Source: Thermophilibacter provencensis
Lineage (GTDB): Bacteria; Actinomycetota; Coriobacteriia; Coriobacteriales; Atopobiaceae
Direction of reading: 5' to 3'
Length of the DNA: 64,000 bases
NCBI RefSeq assembly: GCF_900128445.1
Contig: NZ_LT671417.1
Span: 124,001-188,000 of the forward strand
The notes beneath the pieces are model-generated. The model was not told the DNA's origin, searched no databases, and saw only the letters and a program-made list of their open reading frames with translations. Shown piece after piece: positions 44,855 to 58,025 of this stretch; the stretch's first letter is position 1, and each line of letters starts with the position of its first letter. The position numbers were made by a program, and so were the translations under genes.

Positions 44855-47212
44855 CTACCCGCGGCGGCGCAGGAGGATGCCGGTCGCCAAGGCGGACGCG
44901 CCAGCGAGGGCCGGGACGAGCGCAGCGAGAGACCCCGCGTCGCCTGCGGCGGGAAGAGCGGATTCGTCCTTTACGGGGTCGCTCTTCTTGGGTTCGTCCT
45001 TCTCGGGCTCGTCGGGGGTCACGAAGCTGGGGTCCTTCTCGCCGCACGCCGCGCAGGCGCCGTCGACGAAGTCGTGCCCAGTCGCCGCGATCTCGCGAGA
45101 CTCGGTCGCCCCGCAGGATGCGCACGTGCGCCCCTCAACGCCAGGCTCCGTGCAGGTGGCGGGCGTCACGACCTCCCACTCGCCCCAGCTATGACCAAGC
45201 GCGCTGCCAGCCGAGAACGTGTCAGTCCCCGCCGCGCCACACTCGCAGGAAAGGTAATAGGCTGCCGGATTGGTGCAGGTGGCCATGCTCGCAAGGTACG
45301 CGTCATCCTCAACACGCTCGGTGAACGCATGGACGTGCGGAGCGCTGTGGAAGAACTTGCTGGCTATCTCCAGCGTCGCGCTCTGCGACAGCGGAGAATC
45401 GGCCATCTTGCTTGCGTTCTCCTCAGAGCTCCCCTCCCAGACGTCGACGAGTCCACCCTTGGGATCGATCGTGATGGAGTCATCCGGGGCAAATGCAGCA
45501 TAGGGGGAGCTCACCGTGACATCCGAAGCTCCGCTTATGGTGATGTCTCCGTTCACATACATCGCATTATGCCCCGACGAGGTTGCCACAACCTTGCTGT
45601 CCTCGATTACGACATCGCCTACCATCGTGTGCACGGCAATCCCTGAAGCAGCGCTTACCGTCACCTGGCTGTTGTTCTTGATGGTGATAGTTCCCTCGCT
45701 GGGAATCAGGTCGTTGCCTGCCAGGATTCCGAAGTTGTACGTATCGTCCGCAGTCGCTTCGACGATGGAGTTGTCGATGGTGATGTCGTGGTCGGAGAGG
45801 ATCATGCTGTTGGCATACTGCCCCTCGGCATCGACCCATGCGTGAACTTCAGAATCGACGATGGAGACGCCCCCGTTGCCGATCACAGGATGCGTATCGG
45901 CTCCCGTGCCGGTAACCTCCGCGACGGTCCCATCGGTGATCAGCAGCTGGCCGCCTGCCTGGATCCCAACGCCGATAAAGGGACTTCTCCTATCGACGTC
46001 GACGTCCAGGTCCACCCCTGAAATGGTGACGTTGCGCGAGGCATTGGCGCTGCCGATGCCGTAGTACACCGCGTCGACGGTCAGCGCGCCGCCTGTTATG
46101 ACGAGGTCACCCGCGCCATTGGCGTAAATGCCACTCGTGACGGAGGTGATGACGTTCTTACCCACGAGCTTGACGTTCAGGTCGCCGTTGAACAGGATGG
46201 CACCCTTTGTGTTGTCGCCCTGGTTCTCCTGATAGTCGATTATCGCGTTGTTCAGCGTGAGCGTATTGCTTGCGGGGTCGTAGGACACCGTGCCATCGCC
46301 CAGCACGTCACCCGCGTTATCGTCGCTCACCTGCGTGCCGGCGACCCAAACGTCGTAGGTCTGCGCGGGGTCGGGCTCGGGGAGCGCCTGCTCGACCGCC
46401 TCGGCAATCAGCTGGTGGCCGAGCGCGTTGGGGTGGAAGTCGAGGTTGAAGTCTTTTATGGCCGTGAAATGGGCGTTGCAGGGATCGTCAGTCGACGCGG
46501 CAAAGGCTTCGTACACGTCCACCACTATGACGCCCTGAGTCTGCGCGACTCCCGCGAGCGTCGTGTTCAGGGCCCGCACGCCCGTATCGAACGTCTGGAC
46601 GATGCCTGCGGCCGCCTCCCCCTCGATGTGCCCGTAGGGGTTGTACTGGTTGGCGATGATGCACGTCACGTCGGGGTTCATGACCTTGATCTGCTCGAGC
46701 GCGCTCGACAGGTTGGTGCTCAGGGTTTTCAGCGCGTCCTCTGCGTGGGACGAGCTTGGGAAACCGCTGAGGCTATTCATAAGAGTCAGAAGCACAAGCG
46801 GATCCTTGATGGTCCCGTTCACGAGACCGTCGCGAATCTGGTCCGCCGTCATCGACACGCCCGGCGCATCCGCCAGGTACTCGTAGAGCGCGTTCATGAG
46901 GTCGTTGCCACCAACGGTGATGGTGATGACGTCAGCGTCCTGAACTGCGGCGATCACCTCGGATTTATTCAGCGTCTCAAGCAGGTCCTCAGACGTCACC
47001 CCGTCGTTCGAGGAGAAGTCGGTGAGCACATACCCCGTATCCCGTTCCAGCATCTCGGGAAACGAGAGCTCACCTCCCTCCAAGCCGTAGCCCGCCGAGA
47101 TGCTGTCTCCCAGCGCGACGTAGGAGCCTGTTCCCGCCGCCGAGGCGCTTGCGGGCACCATGCCGCAGCAAAGCAGCAGCATGCAGAGCAGCCCGATGAT
47201 TCGTCTTATCAC
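44855..47212 (-). CDS. Secreted SGNH hydrolase with pectate-lyase-like repeats and C-terminal membrane anchor
   Basis: A 785-residue exported protein. GTG 47212, with AAGGGGG RBS, begins a signal peptide. The next region is an SGNH/GDSL esterase domain: YVALGDSISAGYG (block I), GGND block, and DFHPNALGHQ block V (Asp-x-x-His). Then comes a beta-helix-like region with repeated TLTLNNA / DLVITGG / NVTISGV strands, a Cys/His-containing region (ASCGATESREIAATGH, CAACGEKDP), a Pro/Asp/Lys linker and a C-terminal hydrophobic helix with RRRG. It is likely displayed on the cell surface and may deacylate a glycan or lipid. It is the only gene between the two 71-bp direct repeats. No obvious LPXTG was seen. 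Confidence 0.8.
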   Translation of the reverse strand: MIRRIIGLLCMLLLCCGMVPASASAAGTGSYVALGDSISAGYGLEGGELSFPEMLERDTGYVLTDFSSNDGVTSEDLLETLNKSEVIAAVQDADVITITVGGNDLMNALYEYLADAPGVSMTADQIRDGLVNGTIKDPLVLLTLMNSLSGFPSSSHAEDALKTLSTNLSSALEQIKVMNPDVTCIIANQYNPYGHIEGEAAAGIVQTFDTGVRALNTTLAGVAQTQGVIVVDVYEAFAASTDDPCNAHFTAIKDFNLDFHPNALGHQLIAEAVEQALPEPDPAQTYDVWVAGTQVSDDNAGDVLGDGTVSYDPASNTLTLNNAIIDYQENQGDNTKGAILFNGDLNVKLVGKNVITSVTSGIYANGAGDLVITGGALTVDAVYYGIGSANASRNVTISGVDLDVDVDRRSPFIGVGIQAGGQLLITDGTVAEVTGTGADTHPVIGNGGVSIVDSEVHAWVDAEGQYANSMILSDHDITIDNSIVEATADDTYNFGILAGNDLIPSEGTITIKNNSQVTVSAASGIAVHTMVGDVVIEDSKVVATSSGHNAMYVNGDITISGASDVTVSSPYAAFAPDDSITIDPKGGLVDVWEGSSEENASKMADSPLSQSATLEIASKFFHSAPHVHAFTERVEDDAYLASMATCTNPAAYYLSCECGAAGTDTFSAGSALGHSWGEWEVVTPATCTEPGVEGRTCASCGATESREIAATGHDFVDGACAACGEKDPSFVTPDEPEKDEPKKSDPVKDESALPAAGDAGSLAALVPALAGASALATGILLRRRG

Positions 47213-47230
47213 GATACAACCCCCTTGAAC

Positions 47231-47248
47231 TTGACCGTGTTCGGTCAA
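47231..47248. promoter_or_regulatory. Palindrome TTGACCG-N4-CGGTCAA upstream of SGNH gene
   Basis: A perfect 7-bp inverted repeat lies 18-35 bp upstream of the GTG start. It may be an operator for the LuxR-type regulator encoded upstream on the same strand, or a leader hairpin. Confidence 0.4.
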
Positions 47249-47362
47249 TAGGACACCTCGAGCCATTGTCGAGGAGATTGGGCGCCGGCACATCACTCAT
47301 CCGCTGGGGCAGAACGGGTGATGCCCCTGTCGGCCTGTCAAAGACCGCCATGTAAAGGCCCC

Positions 47363-48890: not shown

Positions 48891-49514
48891 CTACTTGCAC
48901 TCCTCCAGAATCTCGTACACCTCGTCGGCGTCCAGAACGCGCGGGCAGGTGGGGATGATGATCGTGGAGTCGGCCACGGCGCGCAGTATCTCGTCAACGC
49001 CCTCGCCCTCGATGCCCATATCGGAGAGCTTCGCGGGCAGGCCGATCTCGGCGATGAAGGCCTCGAGCGCATCGATGCCCGCGGCGGCGAGCTCCTCCGT
49101 CGTGCGTCCGTCGGCGTCGATACCCCAGACCGCAGCCGCGAAGCGCGCGAACTTCTCGGGCACCCCGGACATCATGTGGCGGTACATCGTGGGGTGGATG
49201 ACGGCGAGGCCGAAGCCGTGGTTGCAGTCCGTGTAGGCGCCGAGCTGGTGCTCGATCATGTGCGCCTGGAACGCCGTCTGCTTGCCGATCTTGAGGATGC
49301 CGTTCTCGGCCATGGCGCTCGCCCAGAAGAGCTCGCTGCGCGGGGCGAGGTCCTCGGGAGCGGCGATCATCTTGCGCGTGTTGTCGATGATGCAGCGCAT
49401 GTTGGCCTCGGCGATGAGGTCGGAGAGGTTGTTGTCGTGCGGCGCGCCGAAGTAGGTCTCCATGCTGTGGCTGAGCATATCGGAGGCGCCGGAGAGCGCT
49501 TGCTTCATGGGCGT
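48891..49514 (-). pseudogene. Iron-containing alcohol dehydrogenase, 5' half missing
   Basis: About 205 residues matching only the C-terminal metal-binding half of Fe-ADH: SGASDMLSHSME (metal Asp and His), MIEHQLGAYTDCNHGFGLA (two more His). The N-terminal Rossmann domain, about 190 residues, is absent and the family homology begins abruptly near 49514. There is no RBS at the in-frame ATGs, and 5' of the junction nothing homologous remains. It is most likely a deletion pseudogene. Confidence 0.8.
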
Positions 49515-49681
49515 GGGTGGGCGACAGGGCATGAATCGCCGCGCGCATCTCATCCCTGCAGCAGGCGAGAAGGACGCTCAGGGCCCGGCGGCACAGAAGC
49601 GGAGGGCGACTTTTTTTCATCGGCCCTTACGCCGGCCTTTTCGTCACGCACGCTCGACTCCCGCCCCACCGCTCGGCGACG

Positions 49682-50638
49682 TCACTTGTCCCGAGCCCGC
49701 GAGCTCGCCTCGGCCCACGAGGAGTAGGAGCCGTCGCCGCGGTGGTCGGGGGTGCCGTAGCGCTCGGCGAGCAACGCGCCCACCGCGGTGCTGACCTTAC
49801 GGGCGCCGGAGGCGTTGAGGTGGTCGCCCGCGTCGTAGCTGTCCTTCGCCCAGTCAACCCCCACGCGGTCCTCGCCCACGTTGAGGTCGATGTAGTCCAG
49901 CCCCAGCTCCGAGGCGACCCGCTCCACGCCGTTGTGCCTCGCCATGTTCCAGTTCTTCGTGCTCGGCGTGCTCAGCAGCACCAGGCGCGCCCCGGCGCGC
50001 TCGCACATCCTCTCGATCTCCTCGAGATAGAGGCGGTTGAGGAGGGGCATCTCGGCCACCTCGTCGCTCGGGGCCATGTACCCCGAGGCATCGGCGGCGC
50101 GTGTCCCCCGCTTCGCCACGAAGCCCTTGCCCTCATCCGTCCACGTGGCGCGCACGGGAGCGATAAAGTCCTCCACGGTCAGGCTCTTCCATCGGTCGTG
50201 GTACTCGACCGCCGGAAGCACGTCCTTGCCCACGCGCAGGATCGCCTCCCCCACCGTGAAGGGGCGAAAGAGGCAGTTGGTCTCCAGCACCACGACCCGC
50301 GGGCTCTGCTTCCTGAGCGCGAGCGCGAGCAGGGAACGCGTGTAGATGAGCTTCTGCCCGTTCGTGCCGAGGGAATACGACGTGATGCCCCGCTCGTCCC
50401 AGAGCTGCAGCGGGGACACCGACGTGAAGATCTCGGAGTCGCCCATGAGGAGCACGTCAATGCTGCCCGCCGGCTCGCCGGCGATGCCATGGACGCGCTC
50501 GTCGCGCTGACCGAACGCGGCCTGGTTGTTCTTGGGCGTAAGCACGTACGAGACCGCCGCGAGAACCGCGACGGTCGCCGCCGCGGAGAGCGCGACCCTC
50601 AGCAGCCCCGACAGCACGCGCGTCATGCGCTTCATCAT
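49682..50638 (-). CDS. DltD/AlgJ-like SGNH-family protein of the Dlt-like operon
   Basis: A 318-residue protein with an N-terminal membrane segment (about 10-30) and a periplasmic SGNH domain: LLMGDSEIFTSVSP (GDS block) and the late GDHLNASGARKVS (catalytic Asp-x-x-His). Such proteins partner MBOAT O-acyltransferases (DltD, AlgX/J, PatB) in exporting acyl groups onto cell-wall polymers. It follows the MBOAT gene by 33 bp and closes the operon. ATG 50638 or the overlapping ATG 50635. Sequence is diverged from classical DltD, and the transferred group is inferred only from context. Confidence 0.8.
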   Translation of the reverse strand: MMKRMTRVLSGLLRVALSAAATVAVLAAVSYVLTPKNNQAAFGQRDERVHGIAGEPAGSIDVLLMGDSEIFTSVSPLQLWDERGITSYSLGTNGQKLIYTRSLLALALRKQSPRVVVLETNCLFRPFTVGEAILRVGKDVLPAVEYHDRWKSLTVEDFIAPVRATWTDEGKGFVAKRGTRAADASGYMAPSDEVAEMPLLNRLYLEEIERMCERAGARLVLLSTPSTKNWNMARHNGVERVASELGLDYIDLNVGEDRVGVDWAKDSYDAGDHLNASGARKVSTAVGALLAERYGTPDHRGDGSYSSWAEASSRARDK

Positions 50639-50671
50639 GAGACCCCAATCGACAAGGCCGCCCCGGCGACC

Positions 50672-52246
50672 CTAGAACGACGCGTACATGGGGTCCACCG
50701 GGACGTAGCCCGCCCCATAGGCCCCAAAGACCACCGTGGTCACGATCAGCGCGCAGCACACCGCCCAGCGAGCGACCGCCCCGCGACGCCAGACGGCCTC
50801 GAGCGGACACGCGCCGCGCTCCCGCAGCACCCCGACGACGAGCAGCGCGACCACGAACGCCCCCGTCACGACAAAGTCTGCCGCGTCCATCCCCGCGGAG
50901 AGGGCCGTGCCGTCCACGAGGGAGGACGCCCTGAAGCCGAGGGTCGCGCGCACGAGCAGCCCCAGGCCCTCGACGGCGCTCGAAGAGCGGAACAGCAGCT
51001 CGCCGGCAACCACCACCAGCAGCGTCCTGACATGCTGGAACGCGTGCCAGAGGGCGCCGTCGCGCGCGACGCCCATCCGGGCGCAGACGGCCTCCGAGGC
51101 GGGCGCGAGAAGGCCCCCCGCCCAGATGAGAACGAAGTAGTACAGGCCGAAGAGCAGGTACTGCGTGCCAGCGCCGTGCCAGAGGCCGTTCCCCAGCCAC
51201 ACGCACAGCAGCGCCACCCCGCTCGCAGCCGCCGGTCCGACGCGGTTGCCGAGCCCCCTGCGCGCGGACGAGGTGAGCCGCTTGACGGGGCCGCTCAGGG
51301 ACACGGGGTAGAACACATAGTCCCTGAACCACGCGCCGAGCGTGATATGCCAGCGCTGCCAGAACTCCGAGGCGGTGCGTGAGAAGAACGGCTGGCGGAA
51401 GTTCTCGGGCAGGCTCACCCCGAAGACGCGCCCCATCCCGCACGCGACGTCCATCGTGCCCGAGAAGTCGCAGTAGAGCTGCAGGGTGTAGAGCGCCGCC
51501 GCGAGCGCGACCATGCCCCCGTCATAGGAGCCGGGGTCTCCGAAGACCGTCTGGACGAACAGGTTGAGGCGGTTGGCCACCACCATGCGTTTGGTCACGC
51601 CCCAGAGCATGCGTGCGCCGCCCGAGAAGAGGCCCTGCGCCGTGACGGGCTCGCCGGCCCAGAGGGCCGACGCCGTCTGGTCGTAGCGGCAGATGGGACC
51701 CTCCATGATCTGAGGGAAGAACGCGAGGTAGAGTGCGAGCCGAGCCAGGTTGCGGTCCGCGCGGGAGCTCCCCCGGTAGACGTCCGCCACATAGGAGACG
51801 GCCTGCAGCGTATAGAACGAGATGCCGATGGGAAGCCCGATCGAGGGGGCCGGAGGAAGCGCGCAGCCCAGCGGCGCCAGAAGCTCGCAGACAAACCCCG
51901 CGTACTTGAGCACGCCGAGGATGCCCAGATTGACCCCCACTCCAACCACGAGAGCGAGGCGCATCCGACGCCCCCAGAGGCGACGGGCGCGACGGCGGTC
52001 GACCCCCTGTCGCGCGAGGTCCGCCGCCCGGCGGCTCGCCAGGGCGTCGAGCGCGAGGCCCGCCGCCCAGATCGAGACCGTCGAGGCGATCACGAAGACC
52101 ACGAGGGGGCCGCTCAGCACCCAGAAGAAGGCGTAGCTCGCCGCCAGGAGCACCGCCCAGCGCGCCCGTCTCGGCGCGAGCTGATAGCAGACGACCGTCG
52201 CGGGTAGGAAGGCGAGCAGGAACGCCGCCGAGAAGTACGAGGTCAT
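50672..52246 (-). CDS. MBOAT family O-acyltransferase (DltB-like)
   Basis: A 524-residue polytopic membrane protein. Conserved MBOAT residues are present: GISFYTLQAVSYV, FWQRWHITLGAWFRDYVFYP (His300) and GNGLWHGAGTQYLLFG (catalytic His357). DltB moves D-alanine from the carrier DltC across the membrane toward teichoic acid; this homologue probably does so with a related acyl group. It follows the carrier protein by 16 bp and precedes the SGNH partner. Confidence 0.9.
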   Translation of the reverse strand: MTSYFSAAFLLAFLPATVVCYQLAPRRARWAVLLAASYAFFWVLSGPLVVFVIASTVSIWAAGLALDALASRRAADLARQGVDRRRARRLWGRRMRLALVVGVGVNLGILGVLKYAGFVCELLAPLGCALPPAPSIGLPIGISFYTLQAVSYVADVYRGSSRADRNLARLALYLAFFPQIMEGPICRYDQTASALWAGEPVTAQGLFSGGARMLWGVTKRMVVANRLNLFVQTVFGDPGSYDGGMVALAAALYTLQLYCDFSGTMDVACGMGRVFGVSLPENFRQPFFSRTASEFWQRWHITLGAWFRDYVFYPVSLSGPVKRLTSSARRGLGNRVGPAAASGVALLCVWLGNGLWHGAGTQYLLFGLYYFVLIWAGGLLAPASEAVCARMGVARDGALWHAFQHVRTLLVVVAGELLFRSSSAVEGLGLLVRATLGFRASSLVDGTALSAGMDAADFVVTGAFVVALLVVGVLRERGACPLEAVWRRGAVARWAVCCALIVTTVVFGAYGAGYVPVDPMYASF

Positions 52247-52262
52247 GTCCGACCCCCGAGCG

Positions 52263-52496
52263 CTAGAGGCCCTGCTCGCGCAGCCGTCGCACGAGCGCCC
52301 AGATGCCCTCGAGCGAGTTGAAGTTCTCGGGCACGATCTCCACGGCGGGAACGACGACGTCGAAGGCGTCCTCGAGCTCAGCGATCAGCGAGATGATGGT
52401 CAGCGAGTCAAGCTCGCGACCGTCCACGAGGTCGGTGCGCCCGCGCCAGTCGACGCCCGGCTTGAGCTCGTCGAGAATGTCCAGAATGGTGTCCAT
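52263..52496 (-). CDS. Acyl/aminoacyl carrier protein (DltC-like)
   Basis: A 77-residue carrier protein with the phosphopantetheine Ser31 in GRELDSLTII and the four-helix ACP size. RBS GAGGAG precedes ATG 52496. It sits between the decarboxylase and the MBOAT genes, so it is the likely site where the activated amino acid is loaded, modified and handed to the membrane transferase. Confidence 0.9.
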   Translation of the reverse strand: MDTILDILDELKPGVDWRGRTDLVDGRELDSLTIISLIAELEDAFDVVVPAVEIVPENFNSLEGIWALVRRLREQGL

Positions 52497-52512
52497 GCGT
52501 ACTCCTCTCTCC

Positions 52513-52531
52513 CCCGGGCCTCCGGCCCGGG
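52513..52531. terminator. Hairpin between decarboxylase and carrier genes
   Basis: CCCGGGCC-TCC-GGCCCGGG, an 8-bp stem, in the 63-bp intra-operon gap. It may attenuate or process the mRNA; no T-tract. Confidence 0.4.
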
Positions 52532-52559
52532 CTCATCTTGCTCGGTCGCGCGAGGCTCC

Positions 52560-53753
52560 TCAGCGCGCTCTTGTTGACGGGGTGTTGAGCGGGTCGGTGC
52601 GAAGCCCCTCGCGAACGAGCTCTAGGGCTCCATCCGCGCCGACGAGCGCCACCCGCGGGAGGTCGCGGCTCAGGAAGAGCGCGATGCCCTCGGTCGCGCA
52701 GTAGGCTCCGGCGCGGGAGAAGGCGAGCAGCGACCCCTCCCCGAGCCCGGCGAGCGGAAGCCGCTTGACCAGGATGTCATTCGTCGTGCAGAGGGACCCG
52801 CACACGTTCCAGGGAAGCTCCTCGGGGCCTTCGGGCGGCGCGGCCCCCAACAGCCTCACCGGCGGACGGCGCATGGCCATGGACTGCCCGTAGTACACGA
52901 GCTGGTGCATGCCCCCGTCGACGATGGCGTAGCGCTGGCCGGCGACCTCCTTGGCGTCCACCACGCGCGTGAGGTAGGTCCCGCACGAGGCCACGAGGCT
53001 GCGCCCCAGCTCGATGGTCACGCGAGCGGCGCGGGACAGCCCGCCGACCGCCTCGGCGAGGCCGTCAAGCAGCGCGTCCTCGTCCGTCTCGTCACCCTCG
53101 AAGTACGCCACGGGCAGGCCCGGGCCATACTCTATCTCCGCCACCTCCCAGCCGCACGAGTCGCGCAGCCCGCGGGCAAGATCGCCGAGACGCCCCACCT
53201 CCCTGCGCAGCCGCCTGACCGAGTCCTTCTGAGTTCCCGAGAAGAACTGAACGCCCCGCAGATCGAGGTGTCGGTCGCCCATGGCCTCGCGCGCGGCGCG
53301 CTCGAGGTCGGCACGATCGAGGCCGAACTGGTTTCCGCTCGAGAGTCGCAGCAGAACGGGCACGCGCAGGCCGCGCGACCGCGCGACGCGCCGAACGAGG
53401 GCGAGCTGCGCGAGGGACTCCACCGTGACGATCGACGGCGCCCCGGAGGCGCCCGCGTCCTCGACGGTCGACTCGTCCTTGTTGACCCCCGAGAGGACGA
53501 TCTTCTCGCCAGGCACGCCGAGCGCCCGGCAGATGCGGTGCTCCCCGGGCGAGCACGCCTCGAGACGGTCCACGAGCGGCTCGAGCGCGGCGAGTACGAA
53601 GGTGTTCGCCTTCACGGCGTAGCAGAGGCCGACGCCGGGAGGCAGGGCGGAGCGCAGCCGCTTTGCGCGGGCGGCCAGCTCTCGCGTGTCGAACACGTAG
53701 AGGGGCGTTCCGTAGTCGCCCGCCACGCGCAGGAGCTCCTCGTCACTCAACAT
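52560..53753 (-). CDS. Fold-type III PLP decarboxylase (LysA/BtrK-like) in Dlt-like operon
   Basis: A 397-residue member of the ornithine/diaminopimelate decarboxylase fold: PLP Lys48 in CYAVKANTF, phosphate-binding Gly-rich motif EYGPGLP (208-214), ELGR (248-251), and CGSLCTTNDIL (318-328) with a Cys at 322. The last motif is closest in type to GPLCTPLD of decarboxylases acting on carrier-bound substrates (BtrK of butirosin, exosortase-associated decarboxylase), rather than free diaminopimelate; that reading is from memory. Its start overlaps the end of the adenylation gene by 11 bases. It likely decarboxylates an amino acid loaded on the operon's carrier. Free-amino-acid decarboxylation remains possible. 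Confidence 0.85.
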   Translation of the reverse strand: MLSDEELLRVAGDYGTPLYVFDTRELAARAKRLRSALPPGVGLCYAVKANTFVLAALEPLVDRLEACSPGEHRICRALGVPGEKIVLSGVNKDESTVEDAGASGAPSIVTVESLAQLALVRRVARSRGLRVPVLLRLSSGNQFGLDRADLERAAREAMGDRHLDLRGVQFFSGTQKDSVRRLRREVGRLGDLARGLRDSCGWEVAEIEYGPGLPVAYFEGDETDEDALLDGLAEAVGGLSRAARVTIELGRSLVASCGTYLTRVVDAKEVAGQRYAIVDGGMHQLVYYGQSMAMRRPPVRLLGAAPPEGPEELPWNVCGSLCTTNDILVKRLPLAGLGEGSLLAFSRAGAYCATEGIALFLSRDLPRVALVGADGALELVREGLRTDPLNTPSTRAR

Positions 53754-55359
53754 GATCGCCCCCTCCTTTCCGTGCGCCGCGAACGCGCTCGAGGTACCCC
53801 CCGAGCAGCGCGGCGCGATCGACCTTCCCGTTGCGCGTCAGGGGCATCGAGCCCACCCGCTCGATGACCGCCGGCACCGCCGGGCCCGGGACGAGGTCCG
53901 CCACGGCAGACCTGAGCCCGGCGGGATCTGCCGCCCCCTCGAAGAAGGCGCAGATGCGGCGGCGGGGCGCGTCGTACGCGCAGCGACAGCGCTCGACGCC
54001 CGGCTGCGCCTCCAGCGCCGCGTCGACCTCCTCGAGCTCGATGCGATGGCCCTGGAGCTTGACCTGGCTGTCCACGCGACCGCAGAAGTAGAGCTCGCCG
54101 CCCGCCCCCAGCCGCGCAAGGTCGCCGGTGCGATACATCGTCTCGGGCAGCGCGGCGAACAGCGGGTTCTGCACGAAGGACCGCGCGGTGCGCTCGGGGT
54201 CGGCGTAGTAGCCACGCGCCAGGGCCGATCCCCCCACGCAGATCTCCCCGACCGAGCCCTCCCGCGTCACCGGCGACTCCCCGTCGAGGAGCAGCACGCG
54301 CCTCCCCGGGAGGGGATCGCCGAGCGGAAGGCCCCCGTCGTATGCGCGCCCGCGCTCAACCACGTGGTAGAGGCAGTTGCAGGTGACCTCCGTGGGGCCG
54401 TAGAGGTTCACGAACGTGGCCCGGGGCAGCCGCTCCATCCAGCGTCGCAGGTGCTCTGCCGGCATGACCTCCCCGCTGAACATCACCAGTCGCACGCGGG
54501 GGAGCCGCACGCCGTCCAGCGCGCGCAGGCCGCTCACCAGGCACAGCGCCGCCACGGCCCACACGAGCACCGTGACCCCGCGCTCCTCGAGCTCCGCAAC
54601 GAGCCGCGCGGGTGCCGAGAAGAGCCTGCGCGGCAGCAGCGCCACCGTGGCGCCTGCGGCGAGCGCGCCGTAGACGTCCTTGACCGAAACGTCGAAGTCG
54701 AGCGGCGCCTGGCTCCCGAGCACGTCGTCGGGACGCAGCCCGAAGGTGTCCACGAAGGTCGAGACGAACTCGAGTATGGCCGCATGGCTCACGGCGACGC
54801 CCTTGGGCTCGCCCGTGGACCCCGAGGTGAAGAGCACGTAGGCGACGTCGGACGGGGCGATCCCCCGGGCGAGGCGGGCGAGCTCCCCCTCCGCGACGGG
54901 CGTCTGCCCCAGGGCGTCGACCGTGAGGACCGTCAGGTCGGCAAAGAGGCGCCTTGCCTCGGGGAGGCCGCGCTCGTCCGTCAGCACGACGGGCCGCCCG
55001 AGGCGCGCGGCACAGCGCGACGCCCTGCCCCTTGGCGCGCCCGGGTCGACGGGAACGTAGAAGCCTCCGGTCATGAGCACGCCGAAGAAGGCGGCGAGTG
55101 CCCCGACCCCCTTCTCCATGCATACGATTGCCGGCCGGCCGCCGACGCCATGGGCGAGAAGCCCGCTCGCGATCCTCTGGCCCCGCTCGAAGAGCCAGCC
55201 ATATTCGTACGACCCGCCCTCGTCCGTCACCGCCACGCGAGCGGGGTGCTCGAGCGCTCCCCGCTCGAGGAAGGCGAGCGCGGTGTGGGCGTACCTCGCC
55301 CGACGCGCCGGCCTCACGGGCGACGTAACGCCCACGGGCCTCGAAACGGCATCCCCCAT
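53743..55359 (-). CDS. DltA-like amino acid adenylation enzyme
   Basis: A 538-residue stand-alone adenylation domain. Core motifs: A3 FTSGSTGEPKG (177-187), A4 FDVSVKD (222-228), A5 NLYGPTE (318-324), A7 YRTGDLARL, A8 GRVDSQVKLQGHRIELEEVD and A10 Lys in RNGKVDR. Aligning by eye with GrsA the pocket reads D-V-K-A-V-F-L-C-N-K: Asp for the alpha-amino group, and a Lys where DltA has Met. A basic residue there suggests an acidic side chain (compare glutamate-activating domains with D-A-K). It loads the carrier protein of the same operon. The function as DltA for D-alanine is therefore less likely, but not excluded. ATG 55359. Confidence 0.87.
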   Translation of the reverse strand: MGDAVSRPVGVTSPVRPARRARYAHTALAFLERGALEHPARVAVTDEGGSYEYGWLFERGQRIASGLLAHGVGGRPAIVCMEKGVGALAAFFGVLMTGGFYVPVDPGAPRGRASRCAARLGRPVVLTDERGLPEARRLFADLTVLTVDALGQTPVAEGELARLARGIAPSDVAYVLFTSGSTGEPKGVAVSHAAILEFVSTFVDTFGLRPDDVLGSQAPLDFDVSVKDVYGALAAGATVALLPRRLFSAPARLVAELEERGVTVLVWAVAALCLVSGLRALDGVRLPRVRLVMFSGEVMPAEHLRRWMERLPRATFVNLYGPTEVTCNCLYHVVERGRAYDGGLPLGDPLPGRRVLLLDGESPVTREGSVGEICVGGSALARGYYADPERTARSFVQNPLFAALPETMYRTGDLARLGAGGELYFCGRVDSQVKLQGHRIELEEVDAALEAQPGVERCRCAYDAPRRRICAFFEGAADPAGLRSAVADLVPGPAVPAVIERVGSMPLTRNGKVDRAALLGGYLERVRGARKGGGDHVE

Positions 55360-55429
55360 CGCTTCCCCCTATCTTTCGCCTGACCAACCAAAGGCTAGCG
55401 GGCCACCCTAAGGGGGGCCTGAGGAGGGG

Positions 55430-57112
55430 CTAAAGGGTTCCTGAGCTCCTAAGGGTTTCTTTAGGGTCCGCGCCCCTGCCGGCGGCGAGGGGCAGCTCGA
55501 CCACAAACTCTGTCGCCCATGGGGCCTCGGGGCTGGGGGTGAGGCTCACGCGGCCCCCCATGAGCTCGGCGGCCCTCCGGGAAATCGCGAGGCCGAGGCC
55601 GGTGCCTTCCCCCGCCGTACGCGCCGCGTTCTCCGTGACGAAGGGCTCGAAGACGTGGGGCGCAAGGTCGGGTGCCACGCCGACGCCGGTGTCCGCGACC
55701 ACGATGCGCACGCTGGCGCCCTCGGGGCTCGTGGAGCAGCTCACGAGCACTCGTGTGCCGGAAGGGTTGTGCTCGACGGCGTTGCCCACCAGGTTGAGCA
55801 GCATCCGCCGAAAGAGGAGGGCGTCGACGAGCACCGGGGCCTCCCGCGGCCCGAGACTCCTCTCGAGCGGGCAGCCCCGCTGCTCGGCGAGGGCGCGGGC
55901 CTCGTCGACGGACTCTGCCACCAGGTCGCGTGCGTCGAGTCGCACGAGGTCGAGCGCGTGCTCGGGGTGCTCCATCCGAGCGTATGTGGAGAGCTCGTCG
56001 AGCAGCTCGGTCGCAACGAGGGCGCGCCCGAGGATGACGCGATGATAGGCGTCGACGCGCCCCGGCGGAACGCGCCCCTCGCAGAGGGCCTGCGCATATC
56101 CGCGAATCACGGTCAGAGGGGTCTTGAGGTCATGGGAGACGCTCGCGACCATGCGCCGCTGGCCGTCACGCGCCACACGGAGCCGGCCCATCAGGTCGCG
56201 GAAGTTGTCGTAGACGGGGGCCAGCTCGATCGGCACGCCGGCGACCGCCGGGCTCTCCACCACCTCTGAGCCGTCGTCCCCGCCGGCATCGCGGCAGGCG
56301 GCAATCGCCCGATCGAGCGGTCGGGCCGAGCGACGGACGAGGCGGCCCAGGACGAGGGCGGCGACCCCGGTCAGGACCAGCACCAGGGGGACCGCGAGCA
56401 GCCACAGGCGGCTCGCCATGCTCGCCACCCGGGAGTACCCCGCGTCGCTCACGATCGGCGCCGCGAGCACGAGGGTGCGCGGGTCGCCGCCCTCGCTCTC
56501 GTAGTCCAGGCGAGATATGCTCATGCGCCCGTCGTAGACGCCCTTGATGAGGCCGAACTCGCGCGGCGTGAGCGCGCCGCGCCCCGAGAACAGCGTCCCC
56601 TCGACCACCCTGAGGTCCTCGTCGAGCACGCACCACGCGCTCACGACCTTGGAGTCTCCGCCGTCCCCATAGGCGCAGAGCATGACGCGATGGCGCGGTC
56701 CCGCCTCCGCGGGCTCCTCGAAGACCTCGAAGAAGAGGCCGTCGCTCGCCTCGCCTATGACATCGAGGTCGGAGGCCCTGATCTTCTCGGCGGCCTCCTG
56801 GCTCGAGGCGTACAGGCGACGGCCGTCGGCGTCGAAGACCACGATGAGGCACCTGGAGAGGCCCCCTCCCGTCAGGGCCCCAAAGTCATCGCGCACGAGC
56901 GCGTCGCGCCGCTCGAGCACCGTGTCCATGGAGGGAAAGGCGCCCTCGAACACGACCTCGGAGAGCGCGCCCGATCCCATGAGCACGCCCACGAGCGCGA
57001 GCGCGTAGAGGGCGAGGACCACGAGGCACCGCGCAGCGAGGCTGCGGGTCAACCCGCCGAGGGCGGGGGGCGCCGAGCCGAGACGGGAGCGAAGCCCGTC
57101 ACGAGCCGTCAA
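55430..57112 (-). CDS. Sensor histidine kinase of the Dlt-like locus
   Basis: A 560-residue membrane kinase. Two hydrophobic segments (about 30-50 and 235-255) bracket an extracellular sensor domain of about 180 residues. The DHp (SVSHDLKTPLTVIRGYAQAL, phosphoaccepting His) and catalytic domain (NLVGNAVEHNP, DTGVGVAPD, FEPF, GTGLGL) are complete. Start is TTG 57112, overlapping the end of the response-regulator gene. It phosphorylates the adjacent regulator, and the pair probably senses envelope stress (as VanRS/BceRS do) and controls the operon that follows. The signal is unknown. Confidence 0.88.
   Translation of the reverse strand: MTARDGLRSRLGSAPPALGGLTRSLAARCLVVLALYALALVGVLMGSGALSEVVFEGAFPSMDTVLERRDALVRDDFGALTGGGLSRCLIVVFDADGRRLYASSQEAAEKIRASDLDVIGEASDGLFFEVFEEPAEAGPRHRVMLCAYGDGGDSKVVSAWCVLDEDLRVVEGTLFSGRGALTPREFGLIKGVYDGRMSISRLDYESEGGDPRTLVLAAPIVSDAGYSRVASMASRLWLLAVPLVLVLTGVAALVLGRLVRRSARPLDRAIAACRDAGGDDGSEVVESPAVAGVPIELAPVYDNFRDLMGRLRVARDGQRRMVASVSHDLKTPLTVIRGYAQALCEGRVPPGRVDAYHRVILGRALVATELLDELSTYARMEHPEHALDLVRLDARDLVAESVDEARALAEQRGCPLERSLGPREAPVLVDALLFRRMLLNLVGNAVEHNPSGTRVLVSCSTSPEGASVRIVVADTGVGVAPDLAPHVFEPFVTENAARTAGEGTGLGLAISRRAAELMGGRVSLTPSPEAPWATEFVVELPLAAGRGADPKETLRSSGTL
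55433..55467 (-). promoter_or_regulatory. Candidate response-regulator repeats upstream of the adenylation gene
   Basis: Three ACCCTWA-type repeats on the minus strand (forward AAGGGTT at 55433 and 55451, TTAGGGT at 55461), spaced 18 and about 11 bp. They lie at the end of the kinase gene and before the adenylation gene, within about 110 bp of its start. Possible site for the OmpR-type regulator of this locus. Confidence 0.35.
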
Positions 57113-57815
57113 GGGTGTACCCCAGGCCGCGGACGGTCTTGATGAAGCGCGGGCTCAGCGGGTCATCCTCGAGCTTGGCGCGGATGTTGGAGATGTGGAC
57201 CATCACGCTGCTCGCCCCTCCCGCGGCCGGCTCCCCGTTCACGCAGGCGTAGAGCTGGTCCTTGGAAAAGACCCTCCCGGGCGAGGACATGAGGGCCGCC
57301 ATGATTTTGAGCTCGGCGGCCGTGAGGGGGATGGGCTCGCCCGCCCTGGTGAGGGAGAGGCGCTCGGTGTCAAAGGCGAGCGCCCCCACGACGACGGAGC
57401 CTTCCGGGGACCGGGCAAGGGGGGCCTGCGCAACCGGGGCCTCCCTCGATGGCCCGACGCGACGGAGCACGGCGCGGATGTGGGCGGCAACCTCCAGCGG
57501 GTCGAACGGCTTGGCTATGAAGCCGTCGGCGCCCGCGTCGAGCCCCACGATCTTGTCGGCCGGCTGCGTGCGCGCCGATACGATGAGCACGGGCATCGAG
57601 CTCGTCCGACGCAGCTCCTTGATGAAGTCGTACCCGTTCATCCGCGGCATCATGATGTCGACGAGCACCACGTCGGCGGAGCGCTCGCGCAGCAGCTCGA
57701 GCGCCTCGACGCCATCACCCGCCGAGATCACGCTATATCCCCCGCCCGTAAGGTAGAGCTCGAGCAGGTCCACGATGTCGGCGTCGTCCTCGACGACAAG
57801 AACCGTCCCGCCCAT
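57099..57815 (-). CDS. OmpR-type response regulator
   Basis: A 238-residue regulator. Receiver domain: DDADIVDLLELYL, phospho-Asp in VVLVDIMMPRMNGYD and the AKPFDP Lys. The C-terminal winged HTH is PhoB-like (LTAAELKIMAALMSSPGRVFSKDQLYACVNG ... FIKTVRGLGYTL). ATG 57815 with GGGAGG RBS was chosen over upstream in-frame starts. It precedes and overlaps the kinase gene and is the best candidate regulator of the Dlt-like operon. Confidence 0.9.
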   Translation of the reverse strand: MGGTVLVVEDDADIVDLLELYLTGGGYSVISAGDGVEALELLRERSADVVLVDIMMPRMNGYDFIKELRRTSSMPVLIVSARTQPADKIVGLDAGADGFIAKPFDPLEVAAHIRAVLRRVGPSREAPVAQAPLARSPEGSVVVGALAFDTERLSLTRAGEPIPLTAAELKIMAALMSSPGRVFSKDQLYACVNGEPAAGGASSVMVHISNIRAKLEDDPLSPRFIKTVRGLGYTLDGS

Positions 57816-58025
57816 CGAACCACCTCCCGTCGCCATCCTACCGGCCCCCATGTGCCCCGTCACGTGACACTCCGGTCACCTTCGCTCCCGTGGCGGCGCG
57901 CCGTCACGGGCACGCCCCTCTCGTCGCCGTACAATCTTCGGGAAGGGCGCCCGCCGAGAAGGGCCCGTTGGTTGCATCGCGTTAACCTGCGGGTGCGGGG
58001 GGGATCGACGCGAGGGCGGCGCCCG

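Follow-up and report, generated by a model that had tools for sequence, protein, structure and literature searches.

We analysed a window of 64,000 nt of Thermophilibacter provencensis DNA (contig NZ_LT671417.1 of assembly GCF_900128445.1, positions 124,001-188,000), in which five genes on the minus strand, encoding an adenylation enzyme (A), a decarboxylase (DEC), an acyl/aminoacyl carrier protein (ACP), an MBOAT acyltransferase and an SGNH-fold protein, form a cassette. As judged from sequence features, structure models and analogy with characterised systems, this cassette probably specifies a second, Dlt-like pathway of envelope acylation, in which a dicarboxylic amino acid loaded through its side chain would be decarboxylated while bound to the carrier. 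What is established is that the genes exist and are conserved together, with their catalytic residues and folds, and that they are separate from Dlt and LysA; decarboxylation on the carrier, backed by the conservation and by the residue evidence, is a good lead. The cassette is kept in hundreds of mostly gut-dwelling bacteria and is apparently undescribed, as no paper on this five-gene set was found in the literature covered, namely open-access papers.

The cassette is preceded by a two-component pair, giving the transcription order RR-HK-A-DEC-ACP-MBOAT-SGNH (window 49682-57815, minus strand), with gaps from the first gene to the last of -14, 70, -11, 63, 16 and 33 bp, negative values being overlaps. 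The OmpR-type response regulator (RR; 57099..57815; Response_reg 102 bits, Trans_reg_C 80 bits) is better started at the ATG at 57815 than at 57863, where the longest open reading frame begins, and it overlaps by 14 bp the sensor histidine kinase (HK; 55430..57112; HisKA 49 bits, HATPase_c 89 bits). They are followed by the stand-alone amino acid adenylation enzyme (53743..55359; AMP-binding 223 bits), the fold-III pyridoxal phosphate (PLP) decarboxylase, which overlaps it by 11 bp (52560..53753; Orn_Arg_deC_N 64 bits, Orn_DAP_Arg_deC 53 bits), the carrier protein (52263..52496; PP-binding 23 bits, cut-off 20.8), the MBOAT protein (50672..52246; PF03062 44.5 bits, cut-off 27) and the SGNH-fold protein with an N-terminal membrane anchor (49682..50638), recognised by its predicted structure and catalytic residues. 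A first-pass annotation, made from the DNA letters, had described five contiguous genes with short gaps or overlaps and a two-component pair reading into them, and all of these were found at that place on the minus strand.

The same annotation had proposed looking for this neighbourhood in other genomes, and the search bore it out. A scan of 84,980 species returned at least 563 relatives, of which the best 80 were used for locus comparison; all 80 belonged to Coriobacteriia and Bacillota, with hosts including Ruminococcus bromii, Acetobacterium wieringae, Agathobaculum and one Streptococcus suis genome. All five genes lay within 9 kb in 77 of the 80 loci, and part of the set was missing from the other three, which we take to be cut by contig ends. 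Recurrence on this scale, in two phyla, lies far outside what chance would produce. The exact order of the window was kept in 65 of the 80, and a more distant Coriobacterial branch showed the order MBOAT-SGNH-A-DEC-ACP. Within the host family DEC scored above 200 bits in 36 of 140 genomes, within the host class it was present in 59 of 398, and a sample of the phylum outside that class gave only two strong matches (208-216 bits). Two-component genes were by far the most frequent neighbours of the cassette: of the 70 testable loci, 27 had an HK and RR on the same strand immediately before A (median gap between HK and A, 151 bp). The RR-HK pair reads into the cassette, and an upstream two-component system probably regulates it in many hosts.

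The residues expected of an active enzyme are present in DEC: K48, E248, G250, R251, C322, D326 and Y351 were invariant, and the catalytic residues were intact in all 16 aligned sequences. When the family profile was compared with solved structures, BtrK of butirosin biosynthesis ranked first with 197 bits, the top diaminopimelate decarboxylase reaching 168, and BtrK, at 25% identity, was also the best match in the Protein Data Bank by sequence. DEC and BtrK depart from diaminopimelate decarboxylases in the same two ways, the His of HIGSQ being replaced by an aromatic residue and CE by CT, and the substrate loop of the diaminopimelate enzymes is missing from DEC. The DEC sequences formed a single clade (support 100/100) that excluded LysA, BtrK and the enzyme of the exosortase type and had no firm sister. 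Annotated relatives on plasmids (32-34% identity) adjoin a carrier-protein gene in Streptomyces and Sinorhizobium, and those of Agrobacterium and Tritonibacter lie within clusters containing carrier proteins. An identity as LysA was rejected, since DEC scored 171 bits with TIGR01048 (cut-off 298) and fell outside the LysA clade (100/99). A separate LysA-like gene elsewhere in the genome reached 265 bits, likewise under the cut-off. The LysA-like genes L053 (G000:C3:1670982-1672214) and L181-L186, of the host family, score below this threshold and lie on a long branch, separate from the remaining LysA sequences of the order.

The first-pass annotation had cited butirosin and exosortase loci as precedents for a decarboxylase working on carrier-bound amino acids. 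BtrK converts glutamyl-BtrI to 4-aminobutyryl-BtrI (PMC7857480); the exosortase-associated decarboxylase is only predicted ('hypoth_equivalog') to be a carrier enzyme, which leaves BtrK and VinO as precedents that have been tested. For bolagladin, BolO/BolN were proposed to be an equivalent pair, and supplying beta-alanine did not make up for the loss of the BtrK-like BolN (PMC7756342). That annotation had also left out of the loading step a feature that the chemistry demands: the alpha-carboxyl has to be free if it is to be removed on the carrier, which means that the amino acid must be linked through its side-chain carboxyl, in which case Asp would give a beta-alanyl and Glu a 4-aminobutyryl group. 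PanD was not found in the genome, and free beta-alanine is thus not made there by the usual enzyme.

The adenylation enzyme is consistent with such a substrate. It matched TIGR01733 with 338 bits, over the cut-off of 317, and remained below the cut-offs of the DltA models. By alignment, its pocket (GrsA numbering) consists of D235, V236, K239, A278, M299, S301, L322, C330, N331 and K517, reading DVKAMSLCNK, against DLYALCTVAK in the DltA of the same genome. The consensus, D-V-K-[SA]-x-S-L-C-N-K, was nearly constant over 98 A enzymes from DEC-bearing cassettes, and D235, K239, S301, C330 and N331 were invariant in all 98. VinN activates 3-methyl-aspartate at its beta-carboxyl, with recognition of the amino group by Asp230 and of the alpha-carboxyl by Ser299 and Arg331 (PMC7756342). 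Ser299 is the counterpart of position 301 (PMC11253843) and Asp230 that of D235, both among the invariant residues. The invariant Lys239 could hold the substrate carboxylate.

The remaining three proteins would carry the group outwards. The carrier has its phosphopantetheine Ser31 in an ELDSL motif, invariant across 18 aligned carriers including the DltC of the same genome. The MBOAT protein, of 524 aa against 393 aa for the DltB of this genome, carries WHG at residues 356-358, with His357 predicted to be catalytic, and ends in two hydrophobic helices followed by a Tyr tail, ...VDPMYASF. Nearly all homologues kept such a tail, ending in DP[IM]YAxF or F[ML]YANF. Compared with FXYXXF, the acyl-shuttle tail demonstrated in PatA and, in the form of the microprotein DltX, in Dlt (PMC12148441), the PMYASF of the window has the Tyr and the final Phe, both conserved; most homologues, like the window, have Pro for the first Phe, which is present in a Coriobacterial branch with F[ML]YANF. 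The gaps of 16 and 33 bp on either side of the MBOAT gene leave no room for a separate DltX gene, and the tail looks PatA-like rather than DltB plus DltX. The last gene gave no match in Pfam or NCBIfam and is predicted to have an SGNH fold: its model (pLDDT 80, pTM 0.79) aligned with E. coli TesA (1ivn, Z 13.1) and PatB (7tlv, Z 12.3), and Ser68 (in GDSE), Asp269, Asp272 and His273 were invariant among the aligned homologues. DltD structures were weaker Foldseek matches to this model, ranked below small esterases, and were not among the 50 structural matches listed for it. In the locus L100, and also in L086 and L145, one MBOAT gene is followed by 2-4 tandem SGNH genes, as if serving several acceptors.

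The Tyr tail of the MBOAT protein and the SGNH fold match the acyl-shuttle mechanism of PatA/PatB (PMC12148441). We favour a model in which the cassette works in four steps, the substrate (Asp or Glu), the acceptor and the activity itself being what we infer. A would adenylate the side-chain carboxyl of Asp or Glu and load it onto the ACP thiol. By analogy with BtrK and VinO, DEC would then strip the alpha-carboxyl on the carrier, yielding beta-alanyl- or 4-aminobutyryl-ACP. As in PatA and DltB/DltX, the MBOAT protein may pass the acyl group to its own C-terminal Tyr outside the membrane, from which Ser68 of the SGNH protein could accept it and esterify an envelope acceptor, leaving an omega-aminoacyl ester and a fixed positive charge.

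Searching with the A profile retrieved more genomes of the class than searching with DEC (85 of 398 against 59 of 398), and in 13 of the 20 extra loci that were fetched the pocket K239-S/T301-C330-N331 was kept with an ACP nearby and, in most, a detected MBOAT gene, with no DEC. These sister cassettes (L196-L206, L213 and L214; for example L202:4587-9500), which are new here, often have the order MBOAT-SGNH-A-ACP. One genome, G056, holds a DEC-bearing and a DEC-less cassette, and in the A tree most DEC-less loci were nested among the DEC-bearing ones. A strict dependence of A on DEC was rejected, and since the 13 sisters keep the same loading pocket without it, DEC behaves as a removable module and is not indispensable, a correction to the first-pass annotation. 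Two of the DEC-less sister loci, and two loci with a different pocket code, have an extra gene between A and ACP, which belonged to the GNAT family in both cases tested (L214:7649-8467 and L208:10146-11051). In L204 a gene of about that size occupies the same position, and L199 and L200 have about 1.8 kb between A and ACP with no recognised gene, one frame being Ser-rich and of low complexity. The simplest reading is that the position between A and ACP can be filled by different enzymes, each editing the group on the carrier, with loading unchanged; the same pocket in DEC-less sisters is what would be expected if decarboxylation follows loading.

Several observations weigh against the proposed mechanism. 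The structure model of DEC aligned equally well (Z 39-39.5) with BtrK and with diaminopimelate decarboxylases, so the fold does not discriminate between them and gives no clue to the substrate. VinN Lys330/Arg331 are replaced in the cassette enzyme by Cys330/Asn331, and the loop after the GPTE motif (beta13-beta14), shortened in VinN, showed no deletion when A was aligned to LgrA; because of these two points, a VinN-like pocket and pose of Asp are not established. The DEC-less cassettes show that a group can be loaded and transferred with no decarboxylation step in between, and no acceptor-polymer gene consistently linked to the cassette was found among the neighbours of the homologous loci. 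The pocket also has V236, S301 and L322 in common with the Ser-type code of non-ribosomal peptide synthetases, DVWHLSLIDK. This likeness, together with the Dlt-like gene logic and the sub-threshold matches to canonical Dlt models, would suit a variant Dlt operon in which A loads an alpha-amino acid (such as Ala, Gly or Ser) destined for teichoic acid and the role of DEC is unrelated or vestigial. We regard that as quite improbable, given the separate dltABCD genes with their different DltA pocket, the intact catalytic residues of DEC throughout its alignment, and a distribution independent of dltB: the DEC cassette and dltB co-occurred in 11 genomes, 11.1 being expected by chance, a count by which a swap of Dlt for the cassette was also rejected.

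In another reading DEC acts first, as a supply enzyme, on free Asp, Glu, diaminopimelate, ornithine or lysine, with A then loading the amine product; its equal structural alignment with decarboxylases of free amino acids speaks for this. Enzymes with the same A code and no DEC would be expected if that product were obtainable elsewhere, and in a genome lacking PanD a supply of beta-alanine would make sense. This order of events nevertheless seems unlikely to us: DEC is without the substrate features of diaminopimelate decarboxylases and scored best with BtrK, the invariant Lys239 hints at an additional carboxylate on the substrate, and the VinN/VinO and BolO/BolN pairs work on the carrier (PMC11284099, PMC7756342). 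Natural-product clusters house BtrK, VinO, BolN and the plasmid relatives, which raises the idea that the MBOAT and SGNH proteins acylate a soluble or secreted small molecule made by the cassette, not an envelope polymer. However, no non-ribosomal peptide synthetase, polyketide synthase, condensation enzyme or exporter was conserved next to the cassette among the neighbours of the homologous loci, which were mostly two-component genes, and the N-terminal membrane helix of the SGNH protein and the Tyr tail of the MBOAT protein are as in envelope acylation; of the alternatives weighed here this is the least probable.

The charge of Gram-positive cells is set by amino groups esterified to their surface polymers, which in the case of Dlt also determine resistance to host peptides. 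A second conserved route in such common gut genera as Collinsella, Olsenella, Agathobaculum, Ruminococcus bromii and Pseudoflavonifractor would imply that their surfaces are modified in a way to which standard assays for D-alanine are blind. With the pocket code invariant, a direct test of the substrate would take only a few purified proteins. More tentatively, the cassette could represent a widespread mode of carrier-dependent envelope acylation of a third kind, distinct both from Dlt and from the acyl-CoA-fed PatA/PatB type and characterised by editing on the carrier (decarboxylation here; in the sisters possibly GNAT modification or none). By it, and under two-component control, gut Coriobacteriia and Clostridia might coat a surface polymer with esters of beta-alanine or 4-aminobutyrate.

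Two further genes lie beyond the cassette on the minus strand of the window. The C-terminal part (220 aa) of an iron alcohol dehydrogenase (48891-49553) is probably a remnant, since its N-terminal half would not fit before the SGNH gene, and a big secreted protein (44855-47296) has a GDSL/SGNH-like domain at its start and a sortase-like tail at its end.

Finally, we compared the cassette with known systems. It resembles Dlt, the system that D-alanylates teichoic acids, in having an adenylating enzyme, a carrier, an MBOAT and an SGNH protein, and in that an aminoacyl group would cross the membrane; it differs in the DEC between A and ACP, in the pocket code and in the Tyr tail fused to the MBOAT protein instead of DltX. 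The genome has its own dltA-B-C-D block, of which B, C and D exceeded the curated cut-offs and A fell below (458 against 560 bits), while the window proteins stayed under the equivalog cut-offs for DltA (238/560 bits), DltB (137/375) and DltC (28/68) and gave no match to the DltD model. With these models missed, the pocket different and separate dltABCD genes present, canonical Dlt was rejected, and the distinctness from Dlt and LysA claimed in the first-pass annotation held, as did its picture of a Dlt-like apparatus with an added decarboxylase, conserved in association with carrier, MBOAT and SGNH proteins and nearest by sequence, among solved structures, to BtrK. With PatA/PatB the cassette shares the C-terminal Tyr shuttle tail and an SGNH partner of matching fold, but it places a carrier, a loading enzyme and DEC before the MBOAT protein and, in the window, has Pro for the first Phe of FXYXXF. 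PatA/PatB-type pathways use acyl-CoA and no carrier, and MBOAT/SGNH pathways other than Dlt are said to be without a carrier protein (PMC12148441), a rule to which the cassette is an exception.

For the middle of the pathway the closest parallels are in antibiotic and other natural-product biosynthesis. In the BtrJ/BtrI/BtrK set, too, a carrier gene adjoins that of a fold-III PLP decarboxylase from the same broad clade, but the cassette enzyme belongs to a separate monophyletic clade and serves an MBOAT/SGNH pair, not an antibiotic. VinN/VinL/VinO and BolO/BolC/BolN, in which an Asp-type substrate is loaded by its beta-carboxyl and then decarboxylated on the carrier, also combine a stand-alone A, an ACP and a PLP decarboxylase, with D235 and S301 conserved; the cassette has C/N for K330/R331, and K239 instead, and the Vin and Bol products go to a polyketide or peptide. 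The exosortase A-associated trio of ligase_PEP_1, dCO2ase_PEP1 and carrier has the identical order A-DEC-ACP, but it lacks MBOAT and SGNH proteins and its own function is unproven; membership in it was rejected on the scores with TIGR03098 (162/592 bits) and TIGR03099 (174/478 bits). By the tests made, the cassette is a full member of none of these systems and joins a Dlt-like outline to a BtrK/VinO-like middle and PatA/PatB-like last steps.

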